Origin: Loigolactobacillus binensis
GTDB lineage: Bacteria > Bacillota > Bacilli > Lactobacillales > Lactobacillaceae
Direction: 5' to 3'
DNA: 64,000 bases
Assembly (NCBI RefSeq): GCF_005405165.1
Contig: NZ_BJDN01000002.1
Span: forward strand, 62,001 to 126,000
Each line of letters opens with the position of its first letter. Position 1 is the first letter of the stretch. Position numbers and translations under genes: made by a program. This document shows, one piece after another, positions 13,778-47,100 of the stretch. A model generated the notes under the pieces. That model did not search any database. It worked only from the letters and a program-made list of their open reading frames with translations, and had not been told where the DNA came from.

Positions 13778-14128
13778 TCTTTCCACCTCAACATTTTCTT
13801 CTATGCTTAAAAGCATAAGTGAACCAGCGGTCAGCTGCAAGTTTTTTCGCCGTTTCTTAAGTTAGGTTTAGAAAATAGACTGCCGATAATTAAGTTAATC
13901 TTAGGTTTTGTGCGCTTTAAAATCATTTGGCGATATGCTAGTATTAATAAGAGTTGCGCAAGGTCACGGGACGTGAAATAATAGCGGTGACCTGTTGATA
14001 AGCAGATAAGTTAAGTTAAAAGTAATTGCTATTTTAATCGTTTGAAAGTAGCGCTGGGTTTCAACGTAACGCTTTTTATTGTGAGTTGAACCGGTGACCT
14101 TAATTGTGAAGTAGAGGAGAAATCGGTA
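13778..14128 (+). other. Intergenic region with promoter and structured leader of the PBP gene
   Basis: The first part belongs to the 5' region of the minus-strand yfhO-like gene. The rest holds the PBP promoter (13916-13944) and a leader of about 177 nt with two hairpins: AGGTCAC pairing with GTGACCT (13961-13993), and one pairing CG-TTTGAAA with TTTCAACG (14039-14065) followed by CGCTTTTTATT. A second copy of GTGACCT at 14094-14100 could pair with the same left arm. No gene is seen. Confidence 0.5.
13916..13944 (+). promoter_or_regulatory. Promoter of the class B PBP gene
   Basis: TTTAAA (13916-13921), 17-bp spacer, TAGTAT (13939-13944) with TGC at the extended -10 position. Confidence 0.55.
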
Positions 14129-16294
14129 GTGAAATTTTTGCGAAAAAAATCTAATCGACCAGCTAAAAATCAGTCGAGTATTCCTTTTCGACTGAATTTT
14201 TTGTTATTCATCGTTTTTATCTTATTTGCGGCTTTGATCGCTCAATTAGGTTATTTGCAGATTCTATACGGTTCTAAATTTGAAGCTGAAGTTGAGAAAA
14301 CCGATAAAACAACGGTGAGCAGCACAGTTCCGCGGGGCATGATCTATGATTCGAATGGTCGGGTAATGGTCGGCAATAAAGCAAATAACGCGATCAGTTA
14401 CACCAAGGACGCCAACGTTTTGTCTACGGATATTTATAAAATCGCCAATCGTTTGGCGGGTTATATCAGCGTTGATGTTAATCAGCTAACTCACCGGGAT
14501 AAGGTTGATTTTTATTTGGCCAACGCCCAGAATTTGAAGCGGGTGTACAATAGCTTACCGCACAGCCAAAAAGTTGATGCCAACGGCGATTCAGTTGGTG
14601 AAAAGGTACTTTATAAGCGGGAAATGGCTGCCGTTAAGGCCAGTGATCTGAAATTTACTAAAAAGCAACGGCAGGCTGCCCAGATCTTCAAGACGATGAG
14701 TGGTGCGTATCAATTATCGACCGTTTATGTTAAGAATAGTGGTGTGAGTGAAGCCGAAGTTGCTAAGGTCAGTGAGCATTTAACGGAATTACCGGGTGTT
14801 AATATTGCGTCAGACTGGGAACGTTCTTATCCAAATGGCGATTCCATGCGCAGTATTTTTGGGAGTGTTTCTTCCGAAAAATCCGGGCTGCCAAGTGATA
14901 AGTTAGATGAATATCTGACCCAAGGTTATTCGCGTAATGACCGGGTCGGCACTAGTTATTTGGAAGAGCAGTATGAAGACGTGCTGAAGGGCACCAAGGC
15001 CAAGACCCAAGTGACCATGAATGCAAGTAATAAAGTGACCAGCAGTAAGAAACTTTATTCTGGTAAACAAGGGGGTAACTTAGTTTTAACGATCAACTCC
15101 AAGTACCAAAAGCAAGTTGAAGCCACATTAAAGAGCGTGTTCAGTTCTGCTAAGTCAGCAGGGATGACCCAGTATTCAAATGGTGCTTACGCCGTGGCCA
15201 TGAATCCGAAAACCGGGGCCGTTTTAGCAATGGCTGGCTTAGGCTATAATCCAAAAACTGGTAAAACTTCTGATGATGCACTAGGCGTGATCAACCAAAC
15301 TTTCACCATGGGCTCGGTTGTCAAAGGGGCAACGGTGCTTGGTGGAATGATGGATGGTGTGATCACACCAACTAATAATACGTTATCGGATACGCCGTTA
15401 TATTTCTCTGGTGGTTTAGTTAAAAAGGCGGTTTATTCGGCCGGTACGTATACATCGTTAGATGCGCAACAGGCTTTGGAAGTGTCGTCAAATATTTATA
15501 TGATGCGTTTGGCCATGAAAGAAGGCAACGCGAAATATGAGGCAAATCAGTATTTTAGTGTGAATAAGTCGATTTTTGCCAAGGAACGGGGATACTTCAA
15601 TCAATTCGGTCTTGGGGTAAAAACCGGGATCGACTTACCTGGTGAAGTGTCTGGTTATACGGGCCCAACAACCGATGTGGTTAAGTCGCTTGATTTAGCC
15701 TACGGGAATTTCGATCAGTATACCGTTATGCAATTAGGTCAATATGTATCCACGATCGCTAACAATGGGTACCGAATGAAGCCTTACTTGGTGCAATCAA
15801 TTCGCAGCACTAATAGTAAGGATGGTAGCTTGGGCAGTACAGAATCGACCACAACGCCAACCGTTTTGAATAAAATCGGGGCCACGCAGGCGGAGATCAA
15901 CGTGGTTAAAGAAGGTTTTTATAACGTGACTCATGGTAGCATGGCTTGGGGGACTGCCCATAGTTTGAAGAACTTTACGCCAGCTATTGCCGGTAAAACC
16001 GGGACCGCGCAAACCTTCTATTATGATTCGTCGAATCCTAATAATGCTAATCCGCCAGAAACTTTGACTTCTAGCTTTGTTGGTTATGCGCCGGCAAGTA
16101 ATCCAACGATCGCAGTGGCAGTCGTTTTCCCTAATATTTCGACTAACGCTGACAGTTCGCATTATAATACGCAGGTCGCCCAAGAAATGTTCAGTAATTA
16201 TTTCAAGGACAATGGCGTGAAGACGTCTAGCGGTACTAGCACGACAACAACTTCAACCACAACCACGTCAACATCGACAAGTACAACGAATTAG
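14129..16294 (+). CDS. pbp2b: Class B penicillin-binding protein (PBP2B-type transpeptidase)
   Basis: 721 residues from a GTG start with GAGGAG upstream. A cytoplasmic basic tail and one membrane helix (about 24-48) are followed by the PBP dimer domain (about 60-290) and a transpeptidase domain. Catalytic motifs are Ser396 in GSVVK, SSN at 453-455 and KTGTAQ at about 623. The C-terminus ends in a Ser/Thr tract of about 20 residues. Class B PBPs crosslink peptidoglycan during elongation or division. PBP2B of lactic acid bacteria is the closest match in layout. It has its own promoter and an unusually long structured leader. Confidence 0.93.
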   Translation: MKFLRKKSNRPAKNQSSIPFRLNFLLFIVFILFAALIAQLGYLQILYGSKFEAEVEKTDKTTVSSTVPRGMIYDSNGRVMVGNKANNAISYTKDANVLSTDIYKIANRLAGYISVDVNQLTHRDKVDFYLANAQNLKRVYNSLPHSQKVDANGDSVGEKVLYKREMAAVKASDLKFTKKQRQAAQIFKTMSGAYQLSTVYVKNSGVSEAEVAKVSEHLTELPGVNIASDWERSYPNGDSMRSIFGSVSSEKSGLPSDKLDEYLTQGYSRNDRVGTSYLEEQYEDVLKGTKAKTQVTMNASNKVTSSKKLYSGKQGGNLVLTINSKYQKQVEATLKSVFSSAKSAGMTQYSNGAYAVAMNPKTGAVLAMAGLGYNPKTGKTSDDALGVINQTFTMGSVVKGATVLGGMMDGVITPTNNTLSDTPLYFSGGLVKKAVYSAGTYTSLDAQQALEVSSNIYMMRLAMKEGNAKYEANQYFSVNKSIFAKERGYFNQFGLGVKTGIDLPGEVSGYTGPTTDVVKSLDLAYGNFDQYTVMQLGQYVSTIANNGYRMKPYLVQSIRSTNSKDGSLGSTESTTTPTVLNKIGATQAEINVVKEGFYNVTHGSMAWGTAHSLKNFTPAIAGKTGTAQTFYYDSSNPNNANPPETLTSSFVGYAPASNPTIAVAVVFPNISTNADSSHYNTQVAQEMFSNYFKDNGVKTSSGTSTTTTSTTTTSTSTSTTN

Positions 16295-30113: not shown

Positions 30114-30195
30114 GTAATTGTGGCTGCCACAGCTACAACCGCTCGAAACGAGTTCAAGTCGGGAAACCGCACTTGTTTTCGGCGAGTCTAAGACG
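30114..30195 (+). ncRNA. Ribosomal protein L21 leader
   Basis: The segment between promoter and ribosome binding site holds nested short hairpins (GTGGCTGCCAC, CTCGAAACGAG, and AAGTCGG...CCGCACTT) in the arrangement of the L21 leader found upstream of rplU in Firmicutes. Its position and composition fit that family; it is thought to let L21 repress its own operon. The exact boundaries are estimated. Confidence 0.65.
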
Positions 30196-30209
30196 AGGAG
30201 GTGCAGCAT

Positions 30210-42994: not shown

Positions 42995-43108
42995 AGCTAT
43001 ATTGAACGGCGTGTGTTTTGGCACATCACTATGATGAAGTTATTGTTCATTTGCGGAAGTTGCAAGACGCGGCCTAATTACTTAGGTGCAAATAAGGGGG
43101 AAGTTATT

Positions 43109-44323
43109 TTGTTGGCTGGAAAACATGTGGCGTTGTACGTTAGTGGTGGGATCGCCGCGTATAAAGCGGCGTATTTAGTGCGGGATTTAATTCGGCAAGG
43201 TGCGCAGGTTCGGGTTGTGGAAACTACAGGCGCGCAAGCTTTCGTGACGCCGCTCACTTTTCAAACGTTGAGTAAGCATGCGGTTTACACGGATCGCTTT
43301 GCCCAATTAGCACCAGATGAAGTTGCCCATATTGAATTAGCCGATTGGACGGAGATCGCCCTGGTGGCGCCGGCAACGGCTGATTTAATCGCTAAAATGG
43401 CTCACGGTATTGCTGATGATTTTGCTAGTACTGCTTTGCTGGCCACTACTGCGGTTAAGTTTGTGGCGCCGGCGATGAACGTTCATATGTGGGAAAACCC
43501 CGCCACACAGCGCAACGTGACGACTTTGAAGGGTGATGGCGTACACATCATCGAACCGGATACGGGCTTTTTAGCGGAAGGTTATAGTGGTAAGGGGCGT
43601 TTTCCTGAGCCAGAACAAATTGTGGCCCTACTGCGCGCTAAATTACTAGCCCAGGATACCGATTTACTGCTACATGGTCAGCAAGTATTAGTCACTGCTG
43701 GTGGCACGCGGGAACGGCTGGACCCGGTTCGTTATTTGACCAATGATTCTTCTGGTAAAATGGGCTATGCGTTGGCGCAGGCCGCTCAGAATCTAGGTGC
43801 CCAGGTCACGTTGATCAGTGCGCCAACTGCTTTACCTGTTCCAGTGGGGGTAACTTATGTGGGTGTCGACTCCGCAGCGGCGATGCGCGCGGCCTTGTTA
43901 CAGCGCTATGCCACTGCGCAGCTGGTGATCATGGCGGCGGCAGTGGCTGATTTTCGGCCGGCAACAGTTGCGGACAATAAAATAAAAAAGACGACCGCGG
44001 ATTATACGTTGGCGTTAACAAAAAATCCGGATATTTTAGCAGAATTAGGCCAGCAAAAGCAGCAGCAATTTTTAATCGGCTTTGCTGCAGAAACCCAGCA
44101 TTTATTAGCCAATGCCCAGCAGAAATTGGTGACTAAAAAAGTTGATATGATCGTGGCCAACGATGTTTCGCAGGCGCAGGTCGGTTTTGATCACGATACC
44201 AACGCGGTCACCGTTTTACAACCCCAACAGGCACCGCAACAGTTGCCGCTGGCCAGTAAGCAAGTGATCGCCCAGCAGATCCTGCAATTAGCGATCAAAG
44301 CCCAGGCGGCGCGAGCAAATTAA
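43109..44323 (+). CDS. coaBC: Bifunctional phosphopantothenoylcysteine decarboxylase / synthetase
   Basis: 404 residues from the TTG at 43109, 8 nt after GGGGG. An in-frame ATG at 43031 would add 26 residues but lacks a ribosome binding site and precedes the family's normal N-terminus. The CoaC flavoprotein domain (about 1-185) shows VSGGIAAYKAAYLVRDL, with active-site His in DEVAHIELADW and the PAMNVHMWENPATQ loop. The CoaB domain (about 195-404) shows VTAGGTRERLDPVRYLTNDSSGKMG and AAVADFRP. It performs two successive steps of coenzyme A synthesis. Confidence 0.96.
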   Translation: MLAGKHVALYVSGGIAAYKAAYLVRDLIRQGAQVRVVETTGAQAFVTPLTFQTLSKHAVYTDRFAQLAPDEVAHIELADWTEIALVAPATADLIAKMAHGIADDFASTALLATTAVKFVAPAMNVHMWENPATQRNVTTLKGDGVHIIEPDTGFLAEGYSGKGRFPEPEQIVALLRAKLLAQDTDLLLHGQQVLVTAGGTRERLDPVRYLTNDSSGKMGYALAQAAQNLGAQVTLISAPTALPVPVGVTYVGVDSAAAMRAALLQRYATAQLVIMAAAVADFRPATVADNKIKKTTADYTLALTKNPDILAELGQQKQQQFLIGFAAETQHLLANAQQKLVTKKVDMIVANDVSQAQVGFDHDTNAVTVLQPQQAPQQLPLASKQVIAQQILQLAIKAQAARAN

Positions 44324-44338
44324 TTGAACGGTTCCTTA

Positions 44339-44656
44339 TATATTGTGAAGTAGAACCATGTTTCTTGCGGCACGGTTTTGGCCACAAGAATGGTTATCGT
44401 CCGTAACATCCGAGCTTATTAGTGTTTTTGACTAATAAGCAACCTATATTGTGAAGTAGAACCATGTTTCTTGCGGCACGGTTTTGGCCACAAGAATGGT
44501 TATCGTCCGTAACATCTGGGCTTATTAGTGCTTTTGACTAATAAGCAACCTATATTGTGAAGTAGAACCATGTTTCTTGCGGCACGGTTTTGGCCACAAG
44601 AATGGTTATCGTCCGTAACATCTGGGCTTATTAGTGCTTTTGACTAATAAGCAACC
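44339..44656. repeat. Three tandem 106-bp repeats plus a 17-bp partial copy, upstream of priA
   Basis: Units start at 44339, 44445 and 44551, with an exact 106-bp period. Units 2 and 3 are identical; unit 1 differs at three positions near its right end. A fourth partial copy, TATATTGTGAAGTAGAA (44657-44673), runs into the priA ribosome binding site. Each unit contains an imperfect hairpin (TTCTTG-C-GGC pairing with GCC-A-CAAGAA) and a perfect one (CTTATTAGT-N7-ACTAATAAG), plus a 25-codon open frame from ATG to a double TAA. The bases before these ATGs do not form a good ribosome binding site. No T run follows the hairpins, so they are not terminators. I recognise no described family. Confidence 0.95.
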
Positions 44657-44685
44657 TATATTGTGAAGTAGAAAGGTGGTTAGTC

Positions 44686-47100
44686 ATGGCGCAATTTGCT
44701 CAAGTGATCGTTGATGTGCCAACTTTACAAACAAATCGGCCCTATGACTATGCGATTCCAACGATTTGGCAGGCGCAATTACAGGCTGGAATGCGAGTCG
44801 TCGTGCCATTTGGAAATGGTGCACGCCAGGTGCAAGGGTTCGTTGTCGGTTTGACTACGACCCAACCCAATTATGCTGGTGAGGTCAAAACCATTGCGCA
44901 GGTGTTAGACCTGCGACCGGTGTTGAATCCTGAATTGTTGGCGTTGGCACAGTGGCTGGCGCAGTGGACCTTTGCCTTTCAGATCAGCTGTTTGCAGACT
45001 ATGTTACCTAGTGTTTTAAAGGCTAGTTACAGTAAAAAAGTTCGGCTAACAGGTGCCGTCACGCCGGCGACGCAAGCTATTTTCCAGGATAAAACCGAGT
45101 TGGATTTTGCTGATTTGTCACCAGAAACAGTTAAGCAGCTTTTAAAATTACAGCAACAGCAGTTAGTTGAAGTGGTTTATGAAGTTCATGATCGCGCTAA
45201 GGTTAAAACGCTAAAAGCAATTCAACCGCTGTTGTCTGCGGCGGCGTATCGTCAAGCGGCGACACAGGTGCCGGCTAACGCCAAGCGGCAACAAGCGTTA
45301 TTGACTTATTTACAGGCGCACGCCGCTACCACTGCGCCGCTACCAGTTGCACAGATCACTAAGGCCACACAGTTGACTTTGGCCAACATGCACACCGGGG
45401 TGGCAAAAGGCTGGTTGCAATTAGTCGATCTAGAAACTTACCGCGATCCTTACGCTGAATTAGCCAGTGCTCCGCGCACGCAGCCGTTAACGTTAACCGC
45501 AGAACAGGCTCAGGCTGTGGCACAGATCACGGCCGCCAGCCGCCAGCAAAAAGAACAAGTTTTTCTTGTTGAAGGGGTGACTGGCAGCGGTAAAACTGAA
45601 ATTTATTTACAGGCGATCCAAGCCGCGCTTAAAATGGATCGTACCGCTTTGATGTTAGTACCGGAAATTGGTTTAACGCCGCAAATGGTGGCTCGAGTGC
45701 GGGGCCGTTTTGGTGAACGGGTGGCGGTTTTGCACAGCGGCTTATCGAATGGTGAACGCTATGATGAATGGCGGCGGATTGAACGCGGTGAGGCGCAAGT
45801 AGTGGTCGGCGCACGTTCTGCCGTTTTTGCCCCCTTGACTAATTTAGGTTTGATCATCATGGATGAAGAGCACGAAAGTAGTTATAAACAAGACGAAATG
45901 CCACGTTACCACGCCCGCGACGTGGCCTTATGGCGGGCAAAATATCATCATTGCCCAGTGGTACTAGGCAGTGCAACACCGTCGCTGGAATCACGGGCAC
46001 GGGCGCAAAAAGGGGTTTACAAATTGTTACGCTTGAAAGAGCGGGCCAATCATCAACCTTTGCCGCCGGTGACAGTTGTCGATATGAAAAATGAATTAAA
46101 AAAAACCAAAGAGGATAATTTTTCTGATCTGTTAATGCAGGCGTTACGCAAGCGGGTGCAACAGCACGAACAAAGTGTGTTGATGTTAAATCGGCGCGGC
46201 TTTTCTTCATTTGTGATGTGCCGTGACTGTGGTTTCGTGCTTAAATGTCCGAATTGTGATATTTCGCTAACCTTGCACATGGATACGCACTCGATGAAAT
46301 GTCATTATTGTGGGCATGAAGAGGCCATTCCCAAGGTCTGCACTAATTGTCAAAGCCGTAAGATTCGTTATTATGGTACTGGTACCCAAAAAGTGGAAAG
46401 TGAATTGCACACATTATTGCCGGCGGCTCGTATTTTGCGGATGGATGTGGATACTACCCGCCGTAAAGGGGCTCACGCTAAGATCTTGCGCCAATTTGGC
46501 CAGCACCAAGCCGATATTTTATTAGGGACGCAAATGATCGCCAAAGGCTTAGATTTTCCGGATGTCACTTTAGTGGGGGTTTTAAATGCGGATACGGCGC
46601 TAGGGCTACCTGATTTTCGGGCCAGTGAACGTACTTTTCAACTGTTGACGCAGGTCAGTGGTCGTGCCGGCCGTGCTGCCAAGGCTGGTGAAGTTATTGT
46701 TCAAACGTACAACCCAGAACATTATGCGATTCGGTTGGCGCGTCACCATGACTATGAAGGCTTTTATCAGCGGGAAATGACGTTGCGCCATCAAGGGGGC
46801 TACCCGCCGTATTATTACACGATTTTAGTGACCGCCAGCCACGAAGAAGAAAACGAAGCGGCTAAAAAGATTTTTCAGTTAATGAATCAAGTTAAACCGG
46901 CGTTATCGCCCCAGGCCGTTTTGTTAGGGCCGACGCCACGCGCCATTGCCCGGGTCAACAAGCGGTATTATTACCAAATGGTGATCAAGTATAAGCACGA
47001 ACCGGAATTAGAAAAAGTATTGACTCAAATTATGCAAGAAAATCAGGCACGCCACGGAATTCAGATTTCCATTGATCGCGAGCCATTGAGTTTTATATAA
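44686..47100 (+). CDS. priA: Primosomal protein N' (replication restart helicase PriA)
   Basis: 804 residues; AAAGGTGG precedes the ATG. The 3' DNA-binding domain (about 1-105), a winged-helix part, then helicase motifs GVTGSGKTEIYLQA (Walker A), DEEHESSYKQ (DExH) and GSATPSLES. The zinc region has eight Cys in CRDCGFVLKCPNC, then CHYCGHEE and CTNCQSRK. Motif VI is LLTQVSGRAGRAAK. It loads the replicative helicase at stalled forks. It immediately follows the tandem repeat array, whose last partial copy forms its leader. Confidence 0.98.
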   Translation: MAQFAQVIVDVPTLQTNRPYDYAIPTIWQAQLQAGMRVVVPFGNGARQVQGFVVGLTTTQPNYAGEVKTIAQVLDLRPVLNPELLALAQWLAQWTFAFQISCLQTMLPSVLKASYSKKVRLTGAVTPATQAIFQDKTELDFADLSPETVKQLLKLQQQQLVEVVYEVHDRAKVKTLKAIQPLLSAAAYRQAATQVPANAKRQQALLTYLQAHAATTAPLPVAQITKATQLTLANMHTGVAKGWLQLVDLETYRDPYAELASAPRTQPLTLTAEQAQAVAQITAASRQQKEQVFLVEGVTGSGKTEIYLQAIQAALKMDRTALMLVPEIGLTPQMVARVRGRFGERVAVLHSGLSNGERYDEWRRIERGEAQVVVGARSAVFAPLTNLGLIIMDEEHESSYKQDEMPRYHARDVALWRAKYHHCPVVLGSATPSLESRARAQKGVYKLLRLKERANHQPLPPVTVVDMKNELKKTKEDNFSDLLMQALRKRVQQHEQSVLMLNRRGFSSFVMCRDCGFVLKCPNCDISLTLHMDTHSMKCHYCGHEEAIPKVCTNCQSRKIRYYGTGTQKVESELHTLLPAARILRMDVDTTRRKGAHAKILRQFGQHQADILLGTQMIAKGLDFPDVTLVGVLNADTALGLPDFRASERTFQLLTQVSGRAGRAAKAGEVIVQTYNPEHYAIRLARHHDYEGFYQREMTLRHQGGYPPYYYTILVTASHEEENEAAKKIFQLMNQVKPALSPQAVLLGPTPRAIARVNKRYYYQMVIKYKHEPELEKVLTQIMQENQARHGIQISIDREPLSFI

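Follow-up and report, generated by a model that had tools for sequence, protein, structure and literature searches.

The window analysed here, a 64-kb stretch of DNA, contains a single tandem array (44339-44673), which lies in the gap between coaBC and priA and ends directly 5′ of the sequence AAAGGTGG-TTAGTC-ATG, the ATG being the start of priA. This arrangement raises the question of whether the array is a control element of priA, as the preliminary description had proposed, or a local representative of something more widespread.

Tandem Repeats Finder gave a period of 106 and 3.2 copies, with 98% matches, 0% indels and a score of 649. This result, together with direct reading, bears out the earlier account of three 106-bp copies followed by a 17-bp partial copy in the coaBC/priA gap. 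It is also the case, as had been described, that copies 2 and 3 are identical, that copy 1 carries three substitutions (two just 5′ of hairpin 2 and one in the loop of that hairpin), and that the hairpin arms are intact in the array copies. All of the features of the locus lie on the plus strand. The array opens with a partial copy consisting of the unit tail TATATTGTGAAGTAGA (44339..44354, direct reading), ahead of the first full unit. The latter (44356..44459) consists of hairpin 1, linker, hairpin 2 and tail and matches the covariance model R1 with 120.1 bits (E = 1.7e-25), being itself one of the 40 units behind that model. Unit 2 (44462..44565), which is also in the model, and unit 3 (44568..44671), which is identical to it, each score 118.7 bits. 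The tail of unit 3, GTGAAGTAG, adjoins the Shine-Dalgarno region of priA, AAAGGTGG (44672..44679). The priA gene (44686..47100) matches TIGR00595 of NCBIfam with 698.7 bits as compared with a cut-off of 230.35, and coaBC (43013..44323) matches TIGR00521 with 454 bits as compared with 219.7. The coaBC match starts from residue 34, and the start codon listed by the ORF tool is probably too far upstream. Between the end of coaBC at 44323 and the start of priA at 44686, the gap in the window genome (G000) is 362 nt.

The copy number of the array in the window may be an assembly artefact; arrays of 2-5 copies are also found in G004, a one-contig genome. No promoter-like site was detected between 44000 and 44800, and there were three terminator-like sites as compared with 1.1 expected. 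Two of the three reside inside the array, where the linker and the start of hairpin 2 pair, and their T runs are poor. The tail sequence CTTAATTGTGAAGTAGA has five matches in the window at ≤3 mismatches as compared with 0.19 expected. Four are in the array, and the fifth is a lone, exact tail (14099..14115, plus strand) positioned 13 nt 5′ of the GTG at 14129 of a PBP2-like gene. R1 gave no match at this lone tail, which is perhaps a decayed copy of the element; by eye, a hairpin precedes it within 14058-14128.

Dispersal of the unit

The 106-bp unit matched 27 places in its own genome at E ≤1. When 60 genomes (its own and 59 relatives) were searched at E ≤0.001, seven matched, namely its own and six of the seven other members of the genus, and the other genera among the 60 gave no match at this threshold. 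With R1 at E ≤0.01, all eight genus genomes matched, with 20-138 matches each (G000, the window's own, 43; G006, 71; G005, 77; G004, 138; G007, 97; G002, 41; G001, 20; G003, 81); for each genome no more than 150 candidates were scored, and among the matches are a few echoes of the palindromes on the reverse strand, such as that at G000:C3:13200-13303. At E ≤0.001 and with stricter filters, nine of 151 genomes of the family matched R1. Six belong to the genus and three are other Lactobacillaceae (G086, five matches; G102, one; G104, four). When 295 genomes drawn from the order were searched with strict filters at E ≤1e-4, the own genome alone matched. A pattern for hairpin 1 found 26 stretches in a named genome collection, which possibly omits records close to the genome of the window, and all were from Loigolactobacillus (iwatensis, backii, jiayinensis and zhaoyuanensis). 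The same pattern had no match among viral contigs. A plasmid or phage origin was considered and rejected, there being no match in the plasmid or phage collection.

At Rfam gathering scores, no match was obtained for the units of the window or of 12 loci, the best sub-threshold match in the array region being snoR117 with 16.6 bits as compared with 42. A known RNA family is thus ruled out for the units scanned, which agrees with the earlier statement that no matching family was known, and the open-access full texts that we searched contained no description of this repeat family. The copies within an array are nearly identical, with a median identity of 0.960 (80 pairs) as compared with 0.673 between arrays (80 sampled pairs). 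These values support the earlier view that a structured element has expanded in tandem.

The preliminary description had also assigned the unit to priA as its leader element, and this part of it did not survive. It had named a search with a covariance model as a check and stated that a unit found at many unrelated sites would be a dispersed repeat instead, and a dispersed repeat is what the model revealed. Moreover, no array precedes priA in the seven other Loigolactobacillus genomes. One hypothesis that would keep the link to priA is that the array serves this gene specifically, as a riboswitch or as a set of regulator-binding sites; its position directly 5′ of priA speaks for this. This hypothesis is contradicted by the dispersal of the unit, which leads dozens of unrelated genes, by the lack of an array at priA in the seven other genomes, and by the lack of an Rfam match, and we regard it as highly improbable. 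Among the three roles originally suggested, an RNA switch, a protein-binding array and a mobile minisatellite, the third is nearest to the evidence. Since the arrays at other loci have their ends at ribosome-binding sites too, it is still conceivable that the family as a whole functions as leaders.

Fold and covariation of the unit

A single unit folds better than its shuffles (z = −2.27), with 6 of 200 shuffles folding as well, and the whole array does so as well (z = −3.12, 0 of 100). The two stem-loops per unit that had been described earlier are present in the fold of the single unit; when the whole array is folded, a different pairing takes the place of hairpin 1. For the second hairpin, the prediction gives 10 pairs and not the 9 bp stated before.

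We examined the fold in two alignments, A1 with 47 units and A2 with 40, the seven units that separate them having an exchanged or decayed hairpin 1; the covariation counts from A2 therefore cover the main type only. The structure drawn on A2 comprises hairpin 1 with 12 pairs, hairpin 2 with 10 pairs, and a closing helix of 3 bp between RCA of the linker and UGY of the tail, and 97.7% of its 966 cells are paired. Double changes were seen at 11 of the 25 pairs, in 68 cells that are not independent events because the sequences are paralogous copies; none of 500 shuffles reached this level. When the structure was slid along A2, the control structures had at most 8 double-change cells, a comparison that leans in favor of the structure, since it was drawn by hand from the same sequences. 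The covariation is carried by hairpin 2, where nine of the 10 pairs are double-changed, and by the closing helix, where two of the three are. The first pair of the closing helix is A-U in 20, G-C in 16 and G-U in two of the 40 units. Hairpin 1 had no double changes among the 40 units of A2. RNAalifold, applied to the 47 units of A1, likewise predicted hairpin 2, with double changes at all 10 pairs, and placed another 3-pair helix where hairpin 1 would be. Hairpin 2 and the closing helix are thus conserved as paired elements. The counts of G-U and A-C, 19 to 11 with nine of the 19 at one pair, do not discriminate between selection on RNA and on DNA. By eye, the CC following hairpin 2 is kept also in those inner units that are not followed by a Shine-Dalgarno sequence.

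The pairing that competes with hairpin 1 joins its UUGCGG to the CCGUAR in the linker (A2 columns 10-15 and 47-52). It is possible in 95.4% of the A2 cells, it is the one that the folding prediction for the whole array adopts, and it is incompatible with hairpin 1 as well as with the closing helix between linker and tail. It has 0 double changes in A2. In the units outside A2, from L009, L026, L042, L043, L070, L073 and L078, the place of hairpin 1 is taken by other self-complementary stems (by eye), and in L009 this exchange abolishes the competing pairing (by eye).

Alternatively, selection on the unit might act through a small conserved peptide, as an open frame reading ATG TTT CTT GCG GCA CGR ... 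is visible by eye at the start of hairpin 1 in many units. The exchanged stems of L009 and L043, also inspected by eye, bring an early stop codon into this frame, and on the strength of the stop codons in variant stems we rule out a conserved micro-peptide in hairpin 1, an explanation that we find scarcely credible.

Other departures from the main type were noted. Related sequences of ~100-130 nt are inserted in or before the units of L002, L010, L067 and L072; in the first three, the insert appears by eye to lie between hairpin 1 and the linker. In units of L039, L041 and L065, a longer hairpin (GTGACCG ... ACTACGCTCCTTA and similar) seems by eye to stand where the loop of hairpin 1 would be.

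Placement of the arrays and turnover between species

The placement of arrays was determined in G000 and G004 alone of the eight genus genomes, using 39 of the 43 matches in G000 and 120 of the 138 in G004, with the lowest-scoring matches omitted. These form 98 arrays of 1-5 units (28 in G000 and 70 in G004), of which 21 were dropped for want of flanking sequence. In 57 of the remaining 77, the 3′ end of the array is followed within 30 nt by the start of an ORF of at least 60 codons on the same strand, and in 43 of the 57 the distance is 10-15 nt, which places the end of the array at the Shine-Dalgarno sequence. When arrays of at least two units are considered, 36 of 37 end ≤30 nt from such a start. 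On the mirror side, which served as a control, 2 of 77 arrays had an ORF start, and random positions had one in 1080 of 5000 cases, a value that is too high because start codons within genes are counted. Among the 57 ORF starts, two belong to 66-aa frames within fold-back copies (see below), which are probably not genes. By eye, the bases 3′ of the tail are mostly Shine-Dalgarno sequences (AGAGG, AAAGG, GAGG and similar). Several arrays fill the whole gap from a stop codon to the next ribosome-binding site. The arrays of G004 also show a strand bias, with 31 on the plus strand and 4 on the minus strand in the first half of the chromosome, and 26 on the minus strand and 9 on the plus strand in the other half. 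This agrees with arrays following gene direction, as expected, although a replication-linked process could also produce it.

The upstream edge of the arrays resembles the tail as well: a tail-like 5′ edge (≤3 mismatches of 10) is present in 31 of the 57 leader arrays as compared with 309 of 5000 random places. Outside R1 matches, about 0.86 Mb of G000 holds four exact tail motifs, three of them before ORF starts, including the lone tail of the window at 14099-14115. Tails with one mismatch lie before ORF starts in 6 of 69 cases, and shuffled motifs do so in 7 of 57 to 83 of 302. Because the one-mismatch tails show no preference over shuffled motifs, the position of the exact tails before ORFs is only suggestive.

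The genes behind the arrays are diverse, and in inspecting their names we see no pathway in common. Those identified above the curated NCBIfam cut-offs include priA, argR, pgsA, queA, accB, a PpsR-type regulator, murF, truA, pduB, pduO, dnaX, ricT, prfA, mraY, typA, comEB, rbfA, era, hslU, yidC, liaF, rsfS, rihA, trxA, mutS, trxB, a UgpC-type ATPase and rmlD; matches below the cut-off hint at gatD, murT, phoH, tag and a polysaccharide chain-length gene, and several downstream proteins had no NCBIfam match. Core genes are among those listed, with priA in the window genome and prfA, mutS, era, rbfA, truA, mraY, murF, trxA, trxB, dnaX and others in G004.

The positions occupied differ between species. 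In the priA spacers of the seven other Loigolactobacillus genomes, R1 found nothing, even with its filters off, and their coaBC-priA spacers measure 97, 143, 61, 20 and about 20-28 nt as compared with 362 nt in G000. The sequence AGAAAGGTGG before priA is common to G000 and three array-less species (L082, L083 and L084), which indicates that the array was added or lost 5′ of a ribosome-binding site that already existed. The coaBC-priA spacer of G004 ends in GTAGTAGAAAGG, possibly the scar of an array. Among the leader arrays of G004, eight have a comparable ortholog in the part of the G000 sequence that was covered; two of these orthologs, an SGNH-like lipase gene and the chain-length gene, have a unit in G000 as well, and at the same lipase gene the copy number is 1 versus 3. 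No full unit precedes the other six in G000, where the best matches within 470 nt, with the filters off, scored 6.0 bits (tag-like gene), 10.9 (rbfA), 1.6 (rsfS), 0.2 (trxB) and 3.3 (rmlD), liaF having none. The match at rbfA is a half element, hairpin 2 alone (model positions 59-94). A polysaccharide gene (L211, L234 and L142) has the element in its leader, with nearly the same flanks in two Loigolactobacillus genomes, and the upstream flank recurs in G102, which is of another genus; the similarity suggests that this leader may have been transferred as a whole.

One could envision that the unit acts by covering or exposing the ribosome-binding site. In folding calculations, the unpaired fraction of the ribosome site was 0.436 with the unit, 0.398 with shuffled units and 0.641 without any unit, and it was higher with the unit than with the shuffled units in 34 of 57 cases (p = 0.076). 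Masking of the Shine-Dalgarno sequence by the unit was therefore rejected, as there is no clear effect and the weak trend is in the opposite direction. Since the fold neither clearly masks nor frees the ribosome site, an action on mRNA stability, processing or standby is as likely as a direct block.

These observations bear on the hypothesis that the units are a cis-regulatory RNA family, a translational leader answering to one common signal or protein that has been taken up by many genes including priA. The placement at the Shine-Dalgarno sequence, the orientation shared with the genes, the covariation, and the conserved linker and tail are all in keeping with it. So is the competing helix, by virtue of its presence in most A2 cells and in the whole-array fold, and the linker could, according to these predictions, switch between pairing with hairpin 1 and the main fold. 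However, the downstream genes lack a common pathway, most of the positions compared are not common to the two sister species, the ribosome site is not clearly masked or opened, and the competing helix has no covariation and is lost in units of the L009 type (by eye). We consider this hypothesis possible but doubtful.

Relation to other interspersed repeats

Some copies are located between the ends AAACGTG..TTGAAAAAGC and GCTTTTTCAA..CACTCT. Four such stretches were folded, and each forms one long closing stem with the unit part inside. This fold-back element is roughly 215 nt long and has exchangeable inner modules, some of them in tandem (L056, L061, L069, L140, L143 and others); L143, from G104 of another Lactobacillaceae genus, has three tandem units between such ends (by eye). 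The fold-back loci scanned had no match in Rfam. Both exact end motifs flank five of the 77 arrays of G000 and G004, so that the link between the fold-back form and the bare arrays is loose; 72 of the 77 are without the exact pair, and the window array has neither motif. Among the 20 arrays that have no ORF start, three carry both exact motifs. Terminal inverted repeats, a mark of MITEs, occur in the fold-back form, and the bare arrays have none. With a length of about 104 nt, the module, composed of hairpin 1, the conserved linker, hairpin 2, the short helix between linker and tail, and the tail GTGAAGTAG, is thus found in two settings, the ~215-nt fold-back element and bare tandem arrays that end at a Shine-Dalgarno sequence.

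No target-site duplication, another mark of MITEs, was evident by eye in the flanks of the fold-back copies. A search for the Y1 (IS200/REP-type) transposase, PF01797, at E ≤0.001 found it in two of the eight genus genomes, the window's own among them, and found none in G004, the genome richest in copies. Mobilization by a REP-type or IS200-type transposase was rejected on this basis, as the search did not find the enzyme in six of the eight unit-carrying genomes. With the Y1 family as the one searched, we identified no mobilizing enzyme, no target-site duplication and no transposition event.

Several families of bacterial repeats invite comparison. REP/BIME sequences with RAYT, and the short elements of the IS200/IS605 type, are short palindromic units that have GTAG beside the foot of the hairpin and occur in clusters. 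The present repeat differs from them in that no Y1 transposase was found in six of eight carriers and in that the orientation of the arrays is tied to genes. The MIRU minisatellites of Mycobacterium tuberculosis are dispersed intergenic tandem arrays of similar unit length and variable copy number; going by this general description, the present arrays resemble them in being dispersed between genes in tandem with a similar unit length, and MIRUs are not known to have such a two-hairpin fold. With riboswitches and other cis-regulatory leaders, the arrays share a structured sequence directly 5′ of the ribosome-binding site, and they differ in having no Rfam match, no common pathway, positions that mostly do not recur at orthologous genes and a variable copy number. 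The closest likeness is to BOX of Streptococcus pneumoniae and S. suis. BOX has a core module in variable number between complementary end modules, would be tightly folded if transcribed, varies in length between genomes, has no clear link to gene function and is over-represented between convergent genes, though most copies are upstream of a CDS (PMC3049150). Paired end modules around a core of variable number are seen in the fold-back copies and, by eye, in L143, whereas the prevalence of bare core arrays, and their ending at ribosome-binding sites (36 of 37 multi-copy arrays), sets the present repeat apart. By this analogy, the repeat would be BOX-like in kind, with the fixed location of the bare arrays next to ribosome-binding sites as its distinguishing feature.

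One explanation for such a family is that it is purely selfish, preferring purine-rich Shine-Dalgarno targets and having no effect on host genes. The differences between species, in which the native Shine-Dalgarno sequence is kept, and the lack of a coherent gene set can be counted in its favor. No target duplication or enzyme was found, however, the Y1 transposase, the one family searched, having turned up in two of eight genus genomes and not in G004, and, because the bare arrays are unlike BOX with its over-representation between convergent genes, a purely parasitic reading fits poorly. We think it improbable.

Our preferred interpretation, to which we assign a probability of about 0.6, is that the window array is a lineage-specific member of a BOX-like family of modular, interspersed and expandable repeats, probably non-autonomous, whose arrays may act as mRNA leaders; that the array serves priA as a ligand switch is unlikely. 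According to this interpretation, the module would spread by copying as a non-autonomous element, expand and contract by recombination between tails, and be co-transcribed with the gene behind it. It might then act in cis on the start of translation or on the half-life of the mRNA, and copy number would be the tuning knob. The expression of many genes may be touched by this large family. A more far-reaching version is that a self-spreading leader cassette has colonized ribosome-binding sites genus-wide and iterated in tandem, and that copy number and the two-state linker set the expression of dozens of housekeeping genes. We advance this version tentatively and hold it to be rather unlikely; if it were true, each species would wire the translation control of the same core genes differently. 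Bacterial interspersed repeats are commonly held to persist where they cause the least damage. What gives this family its interest is that a folded repeat, in its array form, is located where ribosomes bind the messages of core genes, and that it differs between sister species. If expression is affected, this would be an example from nature of a repeat that rapidly rewires translation, and the role of copy number would be directly testable in food bacteria.

Two other leaders were recognized in the window by Rfam, a T-box leader (1638-1854) preceding an ORF at 2019 that is pheS-like by eye, and an L21 leader at 30127-30199.
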